Origin: Clostridia bacterium
GTDB lineage: Bacteria; Bacillota; Clostridia; Oscillospirales; SIG627
Direction of reading: 5' to 3'
NCBI GenBank assembly: GCA_017467865.1
Contig: JAFUKG010000020.1
Location: forward strand, 1 to 64,000
DNA length: 64,000 nucleotides
The translations under genes and the position numbers were made by a program. Positions within the stretch are counted from its first letter, which is position 1, and every line of letters starts with the position of its first letter. Below, piece by piece: positions 7,204-62,463 of this stretch. The notes below the pieces were generated by a model. It was not told the origin of the DNA and did not search any database. It saw only the letters and a program-made list of their open reading frames with translations.

Positions 7204-7385
7204 CAACAAAAGACGGATACCGCGTATCCGAATTTCGACGGCCTCCCCTTCGTCTGCCCAAGGTTTTAGACGTCACAGTCCGATAGGCATTCCGGCTATT
7301 ACGGCAATGGCTGTTGTCACGGATTTGCACCGCAGTTTCCCTATCCCCGGGCATATTGCCCGGGAACGAAATTTCGATGAACTGT
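7204..7385 (-). promoter_or_regulatory. Cobalamin riboswitch aptamer
   Basis: Read on the minus strand, the region shows the order of elements typical of cobalamin aptamers. There is a GATAGGGAAACTGCGGTGCAA core with AATCCGTGACA, then GGACTGTGACG, GACGAAGGGGAGGCC, and a terminal TTCGGATACGCGG that resembles the usual AGTCCGGATACCGGCC end. A terminator lies between it and the DUF4430 start. High B12 would be expected to stop transcription of the uptake genes. Exact boundaries are approximate. Confidence 0.8.
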
Positions 7386-39804: not shown

Positions 39805-39850
39805 GTGCAGTATGCATTCAGCATACTGCAAATGCAGAATGATGAATGAT
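39805..39850. repeat. Heptamer repeat with GCAGTATGC palindrome
   Basis: GCAGTATGCATTCAGCATAC, then GCAAATGCAGAATGATGAA. This is the left end of an intergenic repeat cluster; related heptamers reappear at 39958-39990 with a TTTTGC ATTCT GCAAAA palindrome. Confidence 0.55.
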
Positions 39851-39852
39851 GA

Positions 39853-39957
39853 TGTGCGGAGCTTTTTCTCGTGCGGAGCAAATTAGCGAAGCCTGAGAAA
39901 ATGCAAGCCATACAGGGAACGAAGGGTGAACAGTGTGTGAACCCGTAGTGAGTCGTA
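39853..39957. repeat. ~105-bp structured repeat, copy 1
   Basis: Variable stem TTTTCTC (39864-39870) / GAGAAAA (39895-39901) around a conserved inner loop (GAGCAAATTAGCGAAGCCT). It is followed by the conserved tail GCCATACAGGGAACGAAG and CCGTAGTGAGTCGTA. Confidence 0.65.
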
Positions 39958-40010
39958 ATTAAGGTAAATTTTGCATTCTGCAAAATTACTCAATGAATAT
40001 TAATTTTGAA

Positions 40011-40215
40011 GTATTTTTTCGCAAGACGAGTGCACACGACAAAGTCGAGGAAGGCTTACTTCTGTAAGTCGACGATGGCTTTGGAGTATGTGCGGGGAAT
40101 TTTCTCGTGCGAAGCGAATTAGCGTAGCCTGAGAAAATTCAAGCCATACAGTGAACGAAGGTGGAGCAATGTGCGACACCGTAGTGAGTCGTAGCGACGT
40201 ATTGCGAAAAAAGAC
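40011..40215. repeat. ~200-bp inverted-repeat (MITE-like) element
   Basis: GTATTTTTTCGCAAGACG (40011-40028) and, inverted, CGTATTGCGAAAAAAGAC (40198-40215) match at 16 of 18 positions. The interior contains structured repeat copy 2 and other GTCGA/CGAC motifs. No transposase and no clear target duplication. Confidence 0.5.
40090..40192. repeat. ~105-bp structured repeat, copy 2
   Basis: Variable 10-bp stem GAATTTTCTC (40097-40106) / GAGAAAATTC (40131-40140), inner loop GAAGCGAATTAGCGTAGCCT, tail GCCATACAGTGAACGAAGG, then GTGCGACACCGTAGTGAG. Confidence 0.7.
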
Positions 40216-40236
40216 AAAAAATTGAGAGGAAAAATT

Positions 40237-41139
40237 ATGGATAAATTAACTCCCCGTACAGCGTTTATAGCAATAATCGGATGCCCCAACGTTGGAAAGT
40301 CCACTCTTCTAAATCACATACTCGGCGAAAAGATTGCCGCAGTATCCAAGAAGCCACAGACTACCCGAACGAGAATAACAGGCATTCTCACCAAAGAGAA
40401 TACACAGTACGTTTTTCTTGACACCCCCGGTATGCACAAGCCCAAAACAAAGCTTGGCGACAATATGGTGAAAGCTATTTCCACGGCGGTGGGCGACGTT
40501 GATGCAGTGCTCTTTCTGACAGAGGCAAAGAATGAAATAACAGGTGTTGAGCGCACTATGCTTGAAAAGCTGACAAAGCAGGGATATCCCCTCTTACTTA
40601 TAGTAAACAAGTCGGACACAGCCAAGAAGGGAGACATTCTCACCACCATTGACCTCTTTACAAAGGAATTTAAATTTGAAGCGGTAGTGCCCATCAGTGC
40701 TATGACGGGAGACAACGTTGATAAAATATTCCTTGAGCTTGAGCCCTTTATCTCAGAGGGTGACTGGATGTTCCCCTCGGATATGATAACCGACCAGCCC
40801 GAGCGTGTTATTGCCGCTGAGGTTATAAGAGAAAAGATGCTCCGTCTCCTTGACGACGAGGTGCCTCACGGTACTGCGGTGGTCATTGAGGACTTTAAGG
40901 ATATAAGAGGGCATCTTATCGACATCCGTGCCGAAATATACTGTGAAAAGCCCGGTCATAAGGGAATAATTATCGGTAAGAACGGCGCCATGATGAAGAA
41001 GATAGGAAGCTACGCCCGTGAGGACCTTGAAGCCTTTTTCGGCACTAAGGTAAACCTTAATCTTTGGGTAAAGGTTAAGGAAAATTGGCGTGATTCTGTT
41101 GTAAGCATTACTAATTTCGGACTTAACTCCGATGTATAA
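40237..41139 (+). CDS. era: GTPase Era
   Basis: The 300-residue product starts at the ATG at 40237 after AGAGGAAA. G1 is GCPNVGKSTLLNHILG, G2 around KPQTTRTRITGI, G3 DTPGMH and G4 NKSD. The C-terminal KH domain ends with the family hallmark LWVKVKENWRDS. It binds 16S rRNA 3' end and assists small-subunit assembly. It overlaps recO by 8 bp. Confidence 0.95.
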   Translation: MDKLTPRTAFIAIIGCPNVGKSTLLNHILGEKIAAVSKKPQTTRTRITGILTKENTQYVFLDTPGMHKPKTKLGDNMVKAISTAVGDVDAVLFLTEAKNEITGVERTMLEKLTKQGYPLLLIVNKSDTAKKGDILTTIDLFTKEFKFEAVVPISAMTGDNVDKIFLELEPFISEGDWMFPSDMITDQPERVIAAEVIREKMLRLLDDEVPHGTAVVIEDFKDIRGHLIDIRAEIYCEKPGHKGIIIGKNGAMMKKIGSYAREDLEAFFGTKVNLNLWVKVKENWRDSVVSITNFGLNSDV

Positions 41140-41881
41140 AACAATCGAAGGTCTGGTACTCAGGCGCACTCGCTTTTCGGACAGCCACGCATACGTGAGG
41201 ATACTGACAAACGAGGGAATTATAACCTTTCTCGCTCACGGAATTATGAGTCCGAAAAACAAAAATTCAATTTCCTGCCAGCCCTATACCTATTCGGAAT
41301 TCGTGCTGAAGGTATCGGGAGAAAGCTGTTCTCTATCCTCTGCCACAACACTGAGGCATATGATAAAACAGGGTGTGGACTTTGAAAGGCTCTCGCTGTC
41401 AAATTACGTGGTGTCAATGGCTAATGATACTGCCTTTGACGTCACCGATGCCCCCGAAATACTTGCCCTTACCTGCACCGCGCTGAAGGTGATTGACTCC
41501 ACCGACACCCCCTCGGATATAATAAAGGCAGTGTTTGAATTAAGACTTATGGCAGGGCTTGGCTTTTTGCCCGACCTTGACGGCTGTCTTAAATGCGGTA
41601 AGAGTAACGGGGAGGGCTTTTTCCTCTTTGAAGAGGGCGGCTTTGTCTGTCAGGACTGTCACATTGACGAGACGAGAAGAGCGGTGAGAGTTGACGGAGA
41701 ACTGATGGGTGCTTTGAGGCTTTTGTTTGAGATGCCCTTAAAAAACGCCTTCGGTATCCGCTTTTCAGACCCCGTGAAGAAGAACGCCTTTATAACTCTT
41801 GCAGAGCGTTTTTCTCTTGAGCACCTTGACTGTGCCGGGGATGCTTTAAATTTCTATAAGGAAAATATTAAAAATTTTTAA
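41132..41881 (+). CDS. recO: DNA repair protein RecO
   Basis: A 249-residue protein. An N-terminal OB domain opens with TIEGLVLRRTRFSDSHAYVR. A zinc site CLKCGKS ... CQDC lies near residue 150, and the C-terminus is helical. RecO loads RecA on gapped DNA with RecR. It starts inside the era 3' end and is one base short of mutS2, giving a compact era-recO-mutS2 operon. Confidence 0.9.
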   Translation: MYKTIEGLVLRRTRFSDSHAYVRILTNEGIITFLAHGIMSPKNKNSISCQPYTYSEFVLKVSGESCSLSSATTLRHMIKQGVDFERLSLSNYVVSMANDTAFDVTDAPEILALTCTALKVIDSTDTPSDIIKAVFELRLMAGLGFLPDLDGCLKCGKSNGEGFFLFEEGGFVCQDCHIDETRRAVRVDGELMGALRLLFEMPLKNAFGIRFSDPVKKNAFITLAERFSLEHLDCAGDALNFYKENIKNF

Positions 41882-41882
41882 G

Positions 41883-44273
41883 ATGACTAATAACAAACAA
41901 AAAGAGGCGTTTTTACACGCCTCAACTACTCTCGAATACAATAAAATACTTGAAATGTGGGCTTCCCTCGCTCACGTAGAGGGAGCAAAGGAGAAAATTC
42001 TCTCCACCCTCCCCGAAACCGATATCACCCGAATAAAGAGATTGCTCCAAGAAACGAAGGAAGCGAAAAAGCTCTCTTCCCTTAAGGGATATCCCTCTTT
42101 TTACGGCGTGAAGAACATTGCCGACTCCTGCGACAGAGCAAAAAAGGGCGCAATGCTGACTATCCCCGAGCTTATAAACGTAGGTCAGCTTCTCTCAGCG
42201 GTAAAGACCCTTCGCGCCTTTGCACCTGCCGATGGAGATGAGAGTGTACTGCGTGAGCGTTTTTCTATGCTCCAGAGTGAGCGTACCCTTGACGAAGCGA
42301 TAAAGAACACCTTTATTTCGGATGAAGCCCTCTCAGACAATGCCTCCGACAAGCTTTACGAAATAAGGAGGAAGATAAGGTCGGCAGGCTCAAAGGTGAG
42401 AGACGCACTTCAAAAGTATATCACATCTCCCTCTTACACCAAATATCTTCAGGAAAACATCATCACCATGCGTAACTCCCGTTACGTGCTCTCGGTGAAA
42501 GCAGAGTGCAAGAACAACATAAAGGGGCTTGTCCACGACACCTCGGCGTCGGGCTCTACCGTCTTTATCGAGCCTAACTCGGTGGTAGAACTTAATAACG
42601 AAATAAGAGTCCTTGAGGGCGACGAGAAAAGAGAGATAGAGAGAATACTTTACACTCTTTCTTCCCTTGTAGCGGAAAAGAGCGAGGTGCTCATTCTCAA
42701 CTACGATATTCTCGTATCGCTGTCGGTCATCTTTTCAAGAGCAGAGCTTTCTGACCGTATGGACGGTGTTTCGCCTGCCATAACCGAAAAGGGAGAGATA
42801 AATCTTGTTAAGGCAAGACACCCTCTCATAGATAAAGAAAAGGTTGTGCCCATTGACATAAGAGTGGGAGGAAGCTTCGACACCCTTGTTATCACGGGTC
42901 CCAACACGGGCGGTAAAACCGTTTCTCTTAAAACCGTCGGACTCTTTACCATGATGGCACAGACGGGTCTTGAAATTCCCGCCGACGATACCTCATCGGT
43001 AAGAGTGTTTGAAAACGTTCTCTCGGATATAGGTGACGAGCAGTCCATTGAGCAGTCTCTTTCCACCTTCTCCTCCCATATGGTAAATATAGTAAAGATG
43101 CTTGAAAATGTATCGGACAAAAGCCTTGTGCTCTTCGACGAGCTTGGAGCAGGCACCGACCCCGTTGAGGGTGCGGCTCTTGCCGAGGCAATTTTAGAGC
43201 ACGTGAAGGACAAGGGCGCTGTGACGGTTGCCACCACCCACTATGCCGAGCTTAAGGCTTACGCCATTGACCGAGACAGAGTAAGAAACGGCGCCTGCGA
43301 ATTTGACGTCAATACCCTTCGTCCCACCTACCGTCTTATTATAGGTGCCCCCGGACGCTCCAACGCCTTTCTCATATCCGAAAAGCTTGGCCTTGACAAG
43401 AGAATAATAGAAGGCGCCAAGAGTAAGGTTGCAAGCGAGAATAAGGAGTTTGAAAACGTGGTGGAAAAGCTTGACGAGGCGAGAATTGAAGCCGAAAAGT
43501 CAAGACGTGACGCCGATAGAATAAAAAAAGAGCTTAAGGAAAAGCTTGAAAGTGCCACGTTAGAGCGCGAAAAGCTTCTTGAATCAGCAAGAGTTGAGCT
43601 TGATAGAGCTCGAACCGAAGCGACAAGAATACTGCAGTCTGCCCGAAGCTCTGCCGACTACGTTTTTCAGGAGCTTGACCGACTTAAAAAGGAAAAGGAC
43701 AAGCTTGCGTTCCGCGAAGAATACGAAAAGTCTCGTGCGGAGCTCAGAGCCCGTCTTAAAGCAGGCGAAAAGTCAGCCGATATAACGATAGAAATAGAAG
43801 AGGATGAAGCCGAGCTTCCCCGTGAGCTTGTGGTGGGAGATATCGTTCTCATTACAACTATCGGTAAAGAGGGCAAGGTTGAGAGAATTCAAGGTGACAG
43901 CATCACCGTGAAAACCGAAAAGTTCTCCATGAAGGTTCAAAAGAAGTCTCTCAGACTTCTGACCGAATTAAAGAAGCTTGAAAATAAGGGTAAGGCAAAG
44001 AAGAGCGCCACCTACTCTCCCCGCCCCGACGTAAAGGCGGAAATCGACCTGAGAGGTATGACGGGAGACGACGCTTGGTTTATGGTAGATAAGTATCTCG
44101 ACGATGCCAAGCGCGGCGGACTTTCCTCTGTCACCCTCATTCACGGTAAGGGCACAGGTGCCCTTCGTGCCGCTCTTTGGCGATACCTCAAAAGCGATAA
44201 GCGTGTATCAAATTTCCACGTAGGCGCCTACGGCGAAGGTGACTTCGGAGTAACTGTCGTAGAAATAAAATAA
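41883..44273 (+). CDS. mutS2: MutS2 ATPase/endonuclease
   Basis: A 796-residue protein. Walker A is ITGPNTGGKTVSLKTVG, the ABC signature region QSLSTFSSHM, Walker B LVLFDELGAGTDPVEGAAL and the His switch VATTHYAELKAYA. A long coiled coil follows (residues ~515-620). The C-terminal SMR nuclease domain begins with EIDLRGMTGDDAW and contains LIHGKGTGALR. It acts in anti-recombination and on collided ribosomes. A terminator follows at once. Confidence 0.95.
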   Translation: MTNNKQKEAFLHASTTLEYNKILEMWASLAHVEGAKEKILSTLPETDITRIKRLLQETKEAKKLSSLKGYPSFYGVKNIADSCDRAKKGAMLTIPELINVGQLLSAVKTLRAFAPADGDESVLRERFSMLQSERTLDEAIKNTFISDEALSDNASDKLYEIRRKIRSAGSKVRDALQKYITSPSYTKYLQENIITMRNSRYVLSVKAECKNNIKGLVHDTSASGSTVFIEPNSVVELNNEIRVLEGDEKREIERILYTLSSLVAEKSEVLILNYDILVSLSVIFSRAELSDRMDGVSPAITEKGEINLVKARHPLIDKEKVVPIDIRVGGSFDTLVITGPNTGGKTVSLKTVGLFTMMAQTGLEIPADDTSSVRVFENVLSDIGDEQSIEQSLSTFSSHMVNIVKMLENVSDKSLVLFDELGAGTDPVEGAALAEAILEHVKDKGAVTVATTHYAELKAYAIDRDRVRNGACEFDVNTLRPTYRLIIGAPGRSNAFLISEKLGLDKRIIEGAKSKVASENKEFENVVEKLDEARIEAEKSRRDADRIKKELKEKLESATLEREKLLESARVELDRARTEATRILQSARSSADYVFQELDRLKKEKDKLAFREEYEKSRAELRARLKAGEKSADITIEIEEDEAELPRELVVGDIVLITTIGKEGKVERIQGDSITVKTEKFSMKVQKKSLRLLTELKKLENKGKAKKSATYSPRPDVKAEIDLRGMTGDDAWFMVDKYLDDAKRGGLSSVTLIHGKGTGALRAALWRYLKSDKRVSNFHVGAYGEGDFGVTVVEIK

Positions 44274-44274
44274 T

Positions 44275-44299
44275 GAAGGGAGCCCCAAGGCTCCCTTCA
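44275..44299 (+). terminator. Terminator after mutS2
   Basis: GAAGGGAGCC / GGCTCCCTTC with loop CCAA, starting at the stop codon. Confidence 0.65.
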
Positions 44300-44316
44300 A
44301 ATGCAGAATGCAGATG
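44300..44316. repeat. Heptamer repeat, left part
   Basis: ATGCAGAATGCAGATG, immediately before structured repeat copy 3; the heptamer family resumes after it at 44419. Confidence 0.5.
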
Positions 44317-44418
44317 AGCGGGTTACTTTTGCGGTGGAGCGAATTAGCGTAACCTGCAAAAGTAAAAGCCATACAGTGAACGAAGGTGGAGCAGTGTGCG
44401 ACACCGAAGTGAGTCGTA
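44317..44418. repeat. ~105-bp structured repeat, copy 3
   Basis: Variable 10-bp stem TTACTTTTGC (44323-44332) / GCAAAAGTAA (44356-44365), different in sequence from copies 1 and 2 but equally paired. Inner loop GGAGCGAATTAGCGTAACCT, tail GCCATACAGTGAACGAAGG, then GTGCGACACCGAAGTGAG. Confidence 0.7.
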
Positions 44419-44526
44419 ATGCAGAATTAAGGTAAATTTGCTTTCAGCAAATTATAATTAATTGTAAATTTCGGCTTCGCCGAAATTGTCCTTACTTATT
44501 CACTTTTCACTATTACCTATTACCTA
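44419..44526. repeat. Heptamer/palindrome repeat
   Basis: ATGCAGAATTAAGG, then palindromes AATTTGC TTTCA GCAAATT and AATTTCGG CTTCG CCGAAATT, then TCACTTTTCACTATTACC. Confidence 0.55.
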
Positions 44527-50895: not shown

Positions 50896-51017
50896 ATGCA
50901 AAATGATGAATGATGAATTGTTGATAATTTCGGCTTTGCCGAAATTTACAATTGATTGTAATTTGCCTGAAGGTAAATTTACCTTAATTCTGCATTCTGC
51001 ACTCTGCATTCATCATT
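50892..51017. repeat. Complete heptamer-family element with inverted ends
   Basis: The left end GAATGCAAAATGATGAATG and the right end CTGCATTCATCATTC are inverted relatives. Inside are palindromes AATTTCGG CTTTG CCGAAATT (50926) and AATTTGCC TGAA GGTAAATT (50962). This is the clearest full-length copy of the family. Confidence 0.65.
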
Positions 51018-51780: not shown

Positions 51781-52623
51781 ATGATAACCTTAAAAACCGA
51801 AATAAAGCAAAAAATAAAAATCCACGAAAACGACCTCTTCTCCCCCGTCAAAACCTTTGACTGCGGGCAGGCTTTCCGCTTTGAAGAAAAAGAGGACTTT
51901 ATAGAGGGTGTTATAAATAAAACACTTCTCCGCATACCCAAGGCTGACACCAAAGGATATATAGAATACTTTTCGGACAAAAACTGTGACGCCTTTTTCG
52001 ACCCCCTTCACTCCTACACCGAAATGACAGAAGGCTTTCTCGCACCCTTTTCGGGAAAAGAGAGAGAAAAGCTTGAAGAGGCGCTTGAAAGAGGATTCGG
52101 CATCAGAATACTGAAACAAGACTTCAAGGAAGCACTTTTCTCCTTTATCATTTCGCAAAACAACAATATCCCAAGAATAAAGAAAAACGTGGCATCCATA
52201 TCCGAAAAATTCGGTGAGCCCTTTGAATACGAGGGCAACACCTACTATGCATTCCCCTCTCCCGAAGCGCTCCTATGGGCGGGCGAGACTGGGCTGAACG
52301 AATGTAAGCTCGGTTTCAGGACAAAATACATACTTGACGCGGCAAAGAAGCTCCATAGCGGAGAAATTGACGAAGATGAGCTGAACTCTCTTGACGTTGA
52401 CTCAGCCCGTGAAAAGCTGAAAACAGTTAAGGGTATCGGTGACAAGGTTGCCGCCTGCACACTTCTCTACGGTATGGGAAGGCTTGAGTGCGTACCCGTT
52501 GACGTATGGATGAAAAAAATCTTTGACAAGTATTTTGACTCTGTGCCCCACCTTGGTGAATTCGGCGGAGTAGCGCAACAGTATTTATTTTATAATGAAA
52601 GATACATTGTCAGCAAAATGTAG
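51781..52623 (+). CDS. 8-oxoguanine DNA glycosylase/AP lyase
   Basis: A 280-residue protein. The N-terminal OGG-type domain has FDCGQAFRFEEKEDFIEGVI. The HhH-GPD core has ALFSFIISQNNNIPRIKKNV, then LKTVKGIGDKVAACTLLYG with the catalytic Lys, and RLECVPVDVWMKKIF with the catalytic Asp. It removes oxidised guanine and nicks the strand. OGG1-type enzymes are common in Clostridia in place of Fpg. The RBS is weak. Confidence 0.9.
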   Translation: MITLKTEIKQKIKIHENDLFSPVKTFDCGQAFRFEEKEDFIEGVINKTLLRIPKADTKGYIEYFSDKNCDAFFDPLHSYTEMTEGFLAPFSGKEREKLEEALERGFGIRILKQDFKEALFSFIISQNNNIPRIKKNVASISEKFGEPFEYEGNTYYAFPSPEALLWAGETGLNECKLGFRTKYILDAAKKLHSGEIDEDELNSLDVDSAREKLKTVKGIGDKVAACTLLYGMGRLECVPVDVWMKKIFDKYFDSVPHLGEFGGVAQQYLFYNERYIVSKM

Positions 52624-52803
52624 AGTGTAGAATGTAGAGTGCTGAATTGTGGCTGATTTTGGCTTAAGCCAAAATCTTCGATTTAATTCTATTTTTACCT
52701 TGTTATAAAGCTTATTTTCGCTTTTAGCGAATACAATCAATTTAATTTCACTTTAGTGAAATTTACCTTAATTCTGCATTATGCATTCTGCATTCTGCAT
52801 TTG
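52624..52803. repeat. Long heptamer-family element
   Basis: GTGTAGAATGTAGAGTGCTG at the left and TTCTGCATTATGCATTCTGC at the right. Three palindromes lie between: GATTTTGGC TTAA GCCAAAATC (52656), TTCGCT TTT AGCGAA (52717) and AATTTCACT TTA GTGAAATT (52744). Confidence 0.6.
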
Positions 52804-54979: not shown

Positions 54980-55112
54980 AATTCTGAATGCAAAATTAAG
55001 AATGATGAATTAAGGAAAATTTTGCTTACAGCAAAATTATAATTAAAGTAAATTTGCCTAAAAGGCAAATTGTCAATAATTCTGCATTATGCATTCTGCA
55101 TTCTGCATTAAA
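54980..55112. repeat. Heptamer-family element
   Basis: TGAATGCAAAATTAAGAATG at left and TTATGCATTCTGCATTCTGC at right, with palindromes AATTTTGC TTACA GCAAAATT (55017) and AATTTGCC TAAAA GGCAAATT (55050). Confidence 0.6.
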
Positions 55113-62194: not shown

Positions 62195-62463
62195 AATGCT
62201 GAATGATGAATGATGAATGCAGAATTATGGTTGATTTGCCTTTGGCAAATCTTCATTTAATCAATATTTAAGGGGAGCACTTTTTTGTAAAAGTGTTCCC
62301 CCTATAACCCCTATGAAAATAATAATTAAATTTTTATTATAGTTTTCGTGGGTGTTTGAGGGAGCGTTTTTATAAAAAGCACTCCCTCAAGATATAATAA
62401 ATTAATTTTCCTTTGGAAAATTTTCCTTAATTCTGCATTCTGCATTCATCATTTTGCATTATA
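62195..62463. repeat. Composite repeat region between clpX and the solute-binding protein gene
   Basis: Left end AATGCTGAATGATGAATGATG with palindrome GATTTGCC TTT GGCAAATC (62233); right end TCTGCATTCTGCATTCATC. Inside are two long hairpins, GGGGAGCACTTTT...AAAAGTGTTCCCC (62271-62300) and CTTGAGGGAGTGC-type arms at 62353-62391. No coding frame with an RBS. Confidence 0.6.

Follow-up and report, generated by a model that had tools for sequence, protein, structure and literature searches.

A repeat of about 105 bp, present three times in a 64,000-nt stretch of Clostridia bacterium DNA (GCA_017467865.1, contig JAFUKG010000020.1, positions 1-64,000, forward strand; hereafter the window), looks like a small mobile element that has not previously been described. 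Its copies fold into two abutting hairpins whose stems differ in sequence yet stay paired, and they sit cleanly, between constant ends, inside other intergenic repeats. The account favoured here, held with moderate confidence, is that of a non-autonomous double-hairpin element of 101-105 nt that is moved in trans as a folded single strand, with single-stranded DNA (ssDNA) preferred to RNA as the probable intermediate.

Copies and their distribution

An earlier note on this DNA had placed three copies in the window, and they are indeed found there, at 39852-39957, 40088-40193 and 44313-44418, all on the + strand; the core motif AGCGAATTAGCGTAGCCT (≤3 mismatches) has three matches in the window against 0.05 expected by chance. 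The copy sequences quoted at the time need small corrections: copy 1 reads AGCAAATTAGCGAAGCCT and GCCATACAGGGAACGAAGG, and copy 3 reads AGCGAATTAGCGTAACCT. With exact ends, copy 1 (105 nt) occupies 39853-39957, copy 2 (105 nt) 40089-40193 and copy 3 (104 nt) 44315-44418, scoring 126, 124.6 and 129 bits respectively with the covariance model. Hairpin 1 (HP1) spans 39853-39910, 40089-40146 and 44315-44371 in the three copies, and hairpin 2 (HP2) follows at 39911-39957, 40147-40193 and 44372-44418.

The genome to which the window belongs (G000; 1.59 Mb, 45 contigs) gave 30 blastn matches spanning most of the repeat. Contig C29 (256226 bp) begins and ends with 20-kb stretches that are exact reverse complements of one another, and the element positions on it (L108, L109) mirror each other, so the true blastn count is 28; this palindrome is an assembly artefact that probably inflates the genome by about 128 kb. 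Blastn and the covariance model together yield about 30 unique intergenic copies, one of them a half copy, including one at C40:22529 that blastn missed and the model caught at 113 bits. About 25 further copies occur in three sister species. Across a sample of six species of the genus (G000-G005), the element is therefore present in four (G000, G001, G003 and G004) and has no copies in G002 or G005. None was found in the other 16 genomes of the family, nor outside the genus among 245 genomes of the order and 391 of the class (models R1 and R2), and collections of plasmids, phages and viral contigs held no match to it. The relatives are metagenome-assembled genomes from the gut (one from sheep rectum) filed under Oscillospiraceae or Clostridia (RGIG6353, SIG621, SIG652). 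In one of the sister species three copies stand in tandem with a period of 116 bp and about two heptamers between them (G001:C25:39674-40013). A literature search found no description of the repeat, and the Rfam covariance models gave no match, in keeping with the earlier suggestion that it belongs to no known riboswitch or non-coding RNA family.

A fold preserved by compensatory change

HP1 rises from a basal stem, in which one base is bulged, through a long variable stem to a one-base bulge; above this come 3 bp of stem, an NNA/GNA loop and a 2-bp stem closed by a loop of 4-6 nt. HP2 begins with TAC/GTA and a 2-bp stem, followed by GNA loops, then a variable stem of 4 bp, GA opposite GA and a short apical stem. 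The common “loop” and “tail” described in the earlier note are both structured themselves: the former contains the 3-bp stem, the G·A internal loop and the 2-bp stem, and the latter is the second covarying hairpin. An alternative fold pairing GCGGG with CCCGC, the energy minimum of some copies, was rejected because its 3′ arm differs among copies while GCGGG is constant.

Among 26 copies from the own genome, the 30-pair structure is paired in 98.2% of cells and 19 pairs show two-sided change; 107 cells are changed on both sides, compared with 32 after shuffling and 2-5 when the register is slid. Across 54 matches, 97.1% of cells are paired and two-sided change affects 22/30 pairs (247 doubly changed cells, compared with 71 after shuffling and 3-21 with the register slid). 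As the 54-match alignment was fitted to the covariance model and hence favours structure, a tree-based null was also run (FastTree with parsimony-matched substitutions); of all column pairs, the ten with the highest scores were predicted base pairs, three of them at E below 0.05. The outermost pairs have support too: pair 4-85 changes from U-A to C-G (7) or G-C (1), and pair 87-135 from A-U to G-C (11). The earlier claim that the stems differ yet remain paired is therefore upheld by a covariation far above the shuffled, slid-register and tree-based controls.

The bulge is kept in 48/48 copies although its identity varies (T 31, A 14, G 3), GA lies opposite GA in 45/48, and both the bulge and the tandem G·A loops are retained in every subfamily. 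Stem sequence is free while pairing is required, and the unpaired features are fixed. Selection on a folded single strand, as first proposed from the three window copies, is supported by the compensation in the stems and by a bulge and mismatched loops that persist unrepaired. Could a mutational process produce the same pattern without selection, if template switching or hairpin correction kept palindromes paired and recombination spread them with their host repeats? Stem changes are almost all double substitutions with few G·U intermediates, as such a process would predict, and neighbouring hairpin repeats are likewise conserved in the loop and variable in the stem. Correction would, however, erase the bulge and the mismatched loops, which persist with changing identities, and it leaves unexplained why insertions are clean and have the same ends in different hosts; this explanation is accordingly considered improbable.

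Under RNA and DNA parameters alike, the + strand has the better fold of the two strands (with RNA parameters, −33.4 vs. −22.4 kcal/mol for the − strand), and mismatches on the + strand are more often G·T than A·C (52 vs. 11; 23 vs. 11 excluding column 13).

Three divergent copies were observed. In L123:12316-12402 and L144:9934-10018 the top of HP2 is deleted, leaving GC-GAA-GC, known as an unusually stable DNA mini-hairpin. In L125:17941-18051 the conserved apical loop GAGCGAATTAGCG is swapped for GAGGAACTCTCCG, where a perfect stem of 4-5 bp is possible.

Exact ends and clean insertion into other repeats

Many copies lie within arrays of 7-base units (AATGCAG, AATGATG, AATTAGG, AGTTAAG), and excision of exactly T(G/A)..GCGG...TCG(T/C/G)A brings back the 7-base phase of the flanks. 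Measured over 26 copies, the 7-nt periodicity across the junction reaches 4.65 of 7 with the exact ends vs. 0.9-2.5 when these are shifted by 1-3 nt. For an empty-site test the flanks were joined and compared with retrieved DNA of the genus. The joined flanks matched an uninterrupted host repeat, with a gapless junction, in 44/49 full copies, and the best match came from the own genome in 39. Several of the weaker matches are short, or are only to the same heptamer array, and the clean-insertion argument is therefore carried by the strong cases: L147 vs. L151 (95% over 80 nt), L148 vs. L149 (91% over 80), L137 vs. L138 (92.5% over 80, with one gap that is not at the junction) and window copy 3 at 44315 (96% over 55). 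At least four types of host repeat are interrupted, namely heptamer composites, a GTAC-hairpin repeat, the repeat at window 40011-40215 and, with weaker matches, a TTTCC...GACAAA repeat. Insertion is thus clean, with constant ends and with neither target duplication nor target loss. No constant tetranucleotide is seen at the left cut site, where the flanks include GCAGA, AATGCA, GCATT, GTACGGC, GCCTT, CCTC and GAGTA, among others. Relative to the heptamers, copies are inserted forward in G000 and G004 and in reverse in G001.

HP1 (columns 4-85 of alignment A2) and HP2 (columns 86-136) tile the inserted segment from its first base to its last. Pair 4-85 joins the first base of the element to the last of HP1, and pair 86-136 its last base to the first of HP2, so that two abutting hairpins leave nothing over and both termini meet at one junction. 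The ends were derived from the flanks and the fold from covariation; these independent results agree to the base, and this agreement is the strongest hint that the moving machinery handles the fold. The element is in this sense a natural data set, its ends, its target and its single-strand fold all being readable from sequence.

All three window copies illustrate the arrangement. Copy 1, its ends placed by heptad phase of the flanks and an empty-site match, lies between an (AATGATG)n array at 39837-39852 (+ strand; detected with TRF), the phase of which runs on past the element, and the right part of its host repeat at 39957-39984 (+ strand), made up of the AATTAAGG module and a small hairpin. 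The host repeat of copy 2 is different: its left part (40011-40088, + strand) is that of a larger hairpin and its right part is at 40194-40215 (+ strand), with 18-nt inverted arms at 40011-40028 and 40198-40215, and the empty-site match is 74% over 70 nt with a gapless junction. Copy 3 is preceded by an (AATGCAG)n array at 44300-44314 (+ strand; TRF), again with a phase that continues beyond the element, and followed by ATGCAGAATTAAGG and small hairpins at 44419-44497 (+ strand); over 55 nt, its joined flanks agree to 96% with an uninterrupted host repeat.

The composite intergenic repeats consist of heptamer arrays (AATGCAG and variants), AATTAAGG, small variable-stem hairpins (AAATTTnnn..nnnAAATT) and, last, inverted heptamers. 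Both with and without the element, they are found at window 50902-51011, 52613-52801, 54985-55109 and 62195-62219 and at many more sites. A second repeat family, TCGSACTG-nCGTACnnnnGTACGnC-GACGSCTTCG, is found at L151:1416-1495, L148:8036, L149:3366, L147:9826 and elsewhere, some of these positions being on the − strand of the locus. Its outer stems vary yet pair (CGTTTAC/GTAAACG, TTGC/GCAA, ACAAACC/GGTTTGT), and, as in the element, variable stems go with a fixed loop.

Neighbouring genes and the route of movement

Does the folded strand serve the host? A structured RNA that has a host role, whether as a small RNA (sRNA) family or as a cis-acting element in mRNAs, and has merely become multicopy would fit the strong covariation, the conserved bulge and G·A motifs and the specificity of the fold for one strand. 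However, copies in the own genome take every orientation to neighbouring genes (++ 8, -- 5, convergent 9, divergent 5; genes were called by a simple open reading frame (ORF) rule, and single cases may be wrong) and show no bias with respect to GC skew or local gene strand. This random orientation argues against a cis-acting mRNA element or an sRNA gene, as do clean insertion into unrelated repeats, absence from two species of the genus and from all other genera sampled, and the lack of any shared promoter upstream of copies when inspected by eye. A host function of this kind is thus improbable. Elsewhere in the window, an AdoCbl-II riboswitch scores above gathering at 7277-7353 on the − strand.

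Candidate movers were sought by profile. The Y1 (HUH) transposase PF01797 is absent in G000, G003 and G004, with one match in G001, while TnpB/OrfB (PF07282) and reverse transcriptase (PF00078, RVT_1) are absent in 6/6 genomes of the genus; control genomes matched in each case. Since the genomes are 81-95% complete, these absences are strong only in combination. A Y2 transposase profile gave no match, but its control was silent too. Tyrosine recombinases, which would act on a folded strand if the element were an integron attC or Xer-type site, are encoded in all six genomes, including those without the element; inspection by eye picked up no attC boxes. A protein of about 495 aa that flanks copies in three species was rejected as a transposase, its sequence reading as that of a putative solute-binding lipoprotein; such genes adjoin copies at L121:13754-14145, L133:9662 and L146:9675, and in G000 and G004 copies lie between two paralogs. 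The second recurrent neighbour reads as a polysaccharide deacetylase. An autonomous version was also rejected, the candidates being half-copies: C32:4228, beside a MATE-type gene, and C18:41656 of G004, with HP1 only.

Movement through an RNA intermediate would leave the element mobile but have its folded transcript copied and inserted, as proposed for the double-hairpin elements of Allomyces mitochondria. The missing target duplication is an argument used in the Allomyces passage of PMC2800124, and the better RNA fold of the + strand, the excess of G·T over A·C on that strand and the tandem G·A and GNA loops, which are typical RNA motifs, point the same way. Against this route, RVT_1 has no match in any of the four species that carry the element, no orientation bias ensures transcription and wobble intermediates are few; it is regarded as unlikely, if somewhat less so than a host function. 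ssDNA is preferred over RNA because the stems show nearly only double substitutions, with few G·U intermediates, and no reverse transcriptase was found.

In the favoured account of trans mobilization, the + strand folds into two abutting hairpins with its ends meeting at one junction. A trans-acting enzyme would recognize this folded strand during a single-stranded stage, through the conserved bulge and G·A loops rather than the free stem sequence, and might then insert it into other intergenic repeats, at a point within or next to their hairpins. Several observations weigh against this account. Taken one by one, only three pairs reach significance in the tree-based test, and pair 87-135 does not form in 15 copies, mainly those of G001 and G004. 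The association with a REP-type TnpA or a reverse-transcriptase gene that the earlier note had suggested was tested in the own genome and failed, a search there for Y1, TnpB and reverse transcriptase yielding no mobilizing enzyme, and no copy has an ORF between its hairpins. Two flanking situations, the polysaccharide deacetylase gene and the solute-binding protein paralogs, are found in more than one species, and some copies may accordingly have been inherited or carried along by the host repeat; nearly all G000 copies in heptamer context could go back to few insertions, with the composite repeat dispersing afterwards.

Relation to known elements

A classical miniature inverted-repeat transposable element (MITE) moved by a DDE transposase was rejected, as the element ends, TGTGCGG and GTCGTA, are not complementary (there are no terminal inverted repeats) and insertion occurs without target duplication. 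Nor does a retron or other reverse transcriptase-linked element fit, PF00078 being absent throughout the genus sample. REP/REPIN sequences, moved by RAYT, and IS200/IS605-derived MITEs are based on hairpins, lack target duplications and are thought to move as folded ssDNA. The element shares their hairpins and the absence of duplication, but differs in that three of its host genomes have no Y1 transposase, the genus has no TnpB, its flanks contain no constant tetranucleotide and its hairpin begins at the very first base.

BOX repeats of pneumococcus are small and intergenic, have extensive predicted structure and are over-represented between convergent genes (PMC3049150). The element resembles them in size, structure and preference for convergent gene pairs; judged by description, BOX has a modular A-B-C build in which the number of boxB units varies, whereas the element has a fixed length, two abutting hairpins and no Rfam match. 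bcr1 and similar sequences are intergenic repeats of about 100-155 bp with a conserved fold and mobile character (PMC2267715). Like bcr1 and ERIC the element is intergenic, structured and apparently mobile, and on descriptions only it is set apart by its two-hairpin tiling and its nesting.

The closest described kind is the mitochondrial double-hairpin elements (DHEs), which are known from Allomyces and from fission yeasts (Schizosaccharomyces; PMC10085805) and, like the element, are short, made of two adjacent hairpins, intergenic, dispersed and uneven in close species (PMC2800124, PMC10085805). A sponge mitochondrial study reports that flanking duplications were not seen in Allomyces, for which RNA intermediates had been suggested (PMC2800124). 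The element agrees in that two adjacent hairpins make up its whole length and no flanking duplication is seen; it differs in residing on a bacterial chromosome, in this genus only among the 245 genomes of the order, in its length of about 104 nt, in its bulge and G·A loops and in being nested in hairpin repeats. The comparison is by architecture, and the likeness lies in architecture and insertion mode, with no common descent claimed. More speculatively, and with rather little confidence, the element may represent a bacterial double-hairpin class: a folded single strand with its ends at one junction (possibly a circle or dumbbell of about 104 nt), inserted without duplication by an enzyme unlike the known HUH transposases or reverse transcriptases, with the hairpins of other mobile repeats as its targets. 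The movement of hairpin elements that encode no protein has long been a puzzle, and in this genus the search for the mover has a defined starting point. The element extends the double-hairpin type from fungal mitochondria to a bacterial chromosome.

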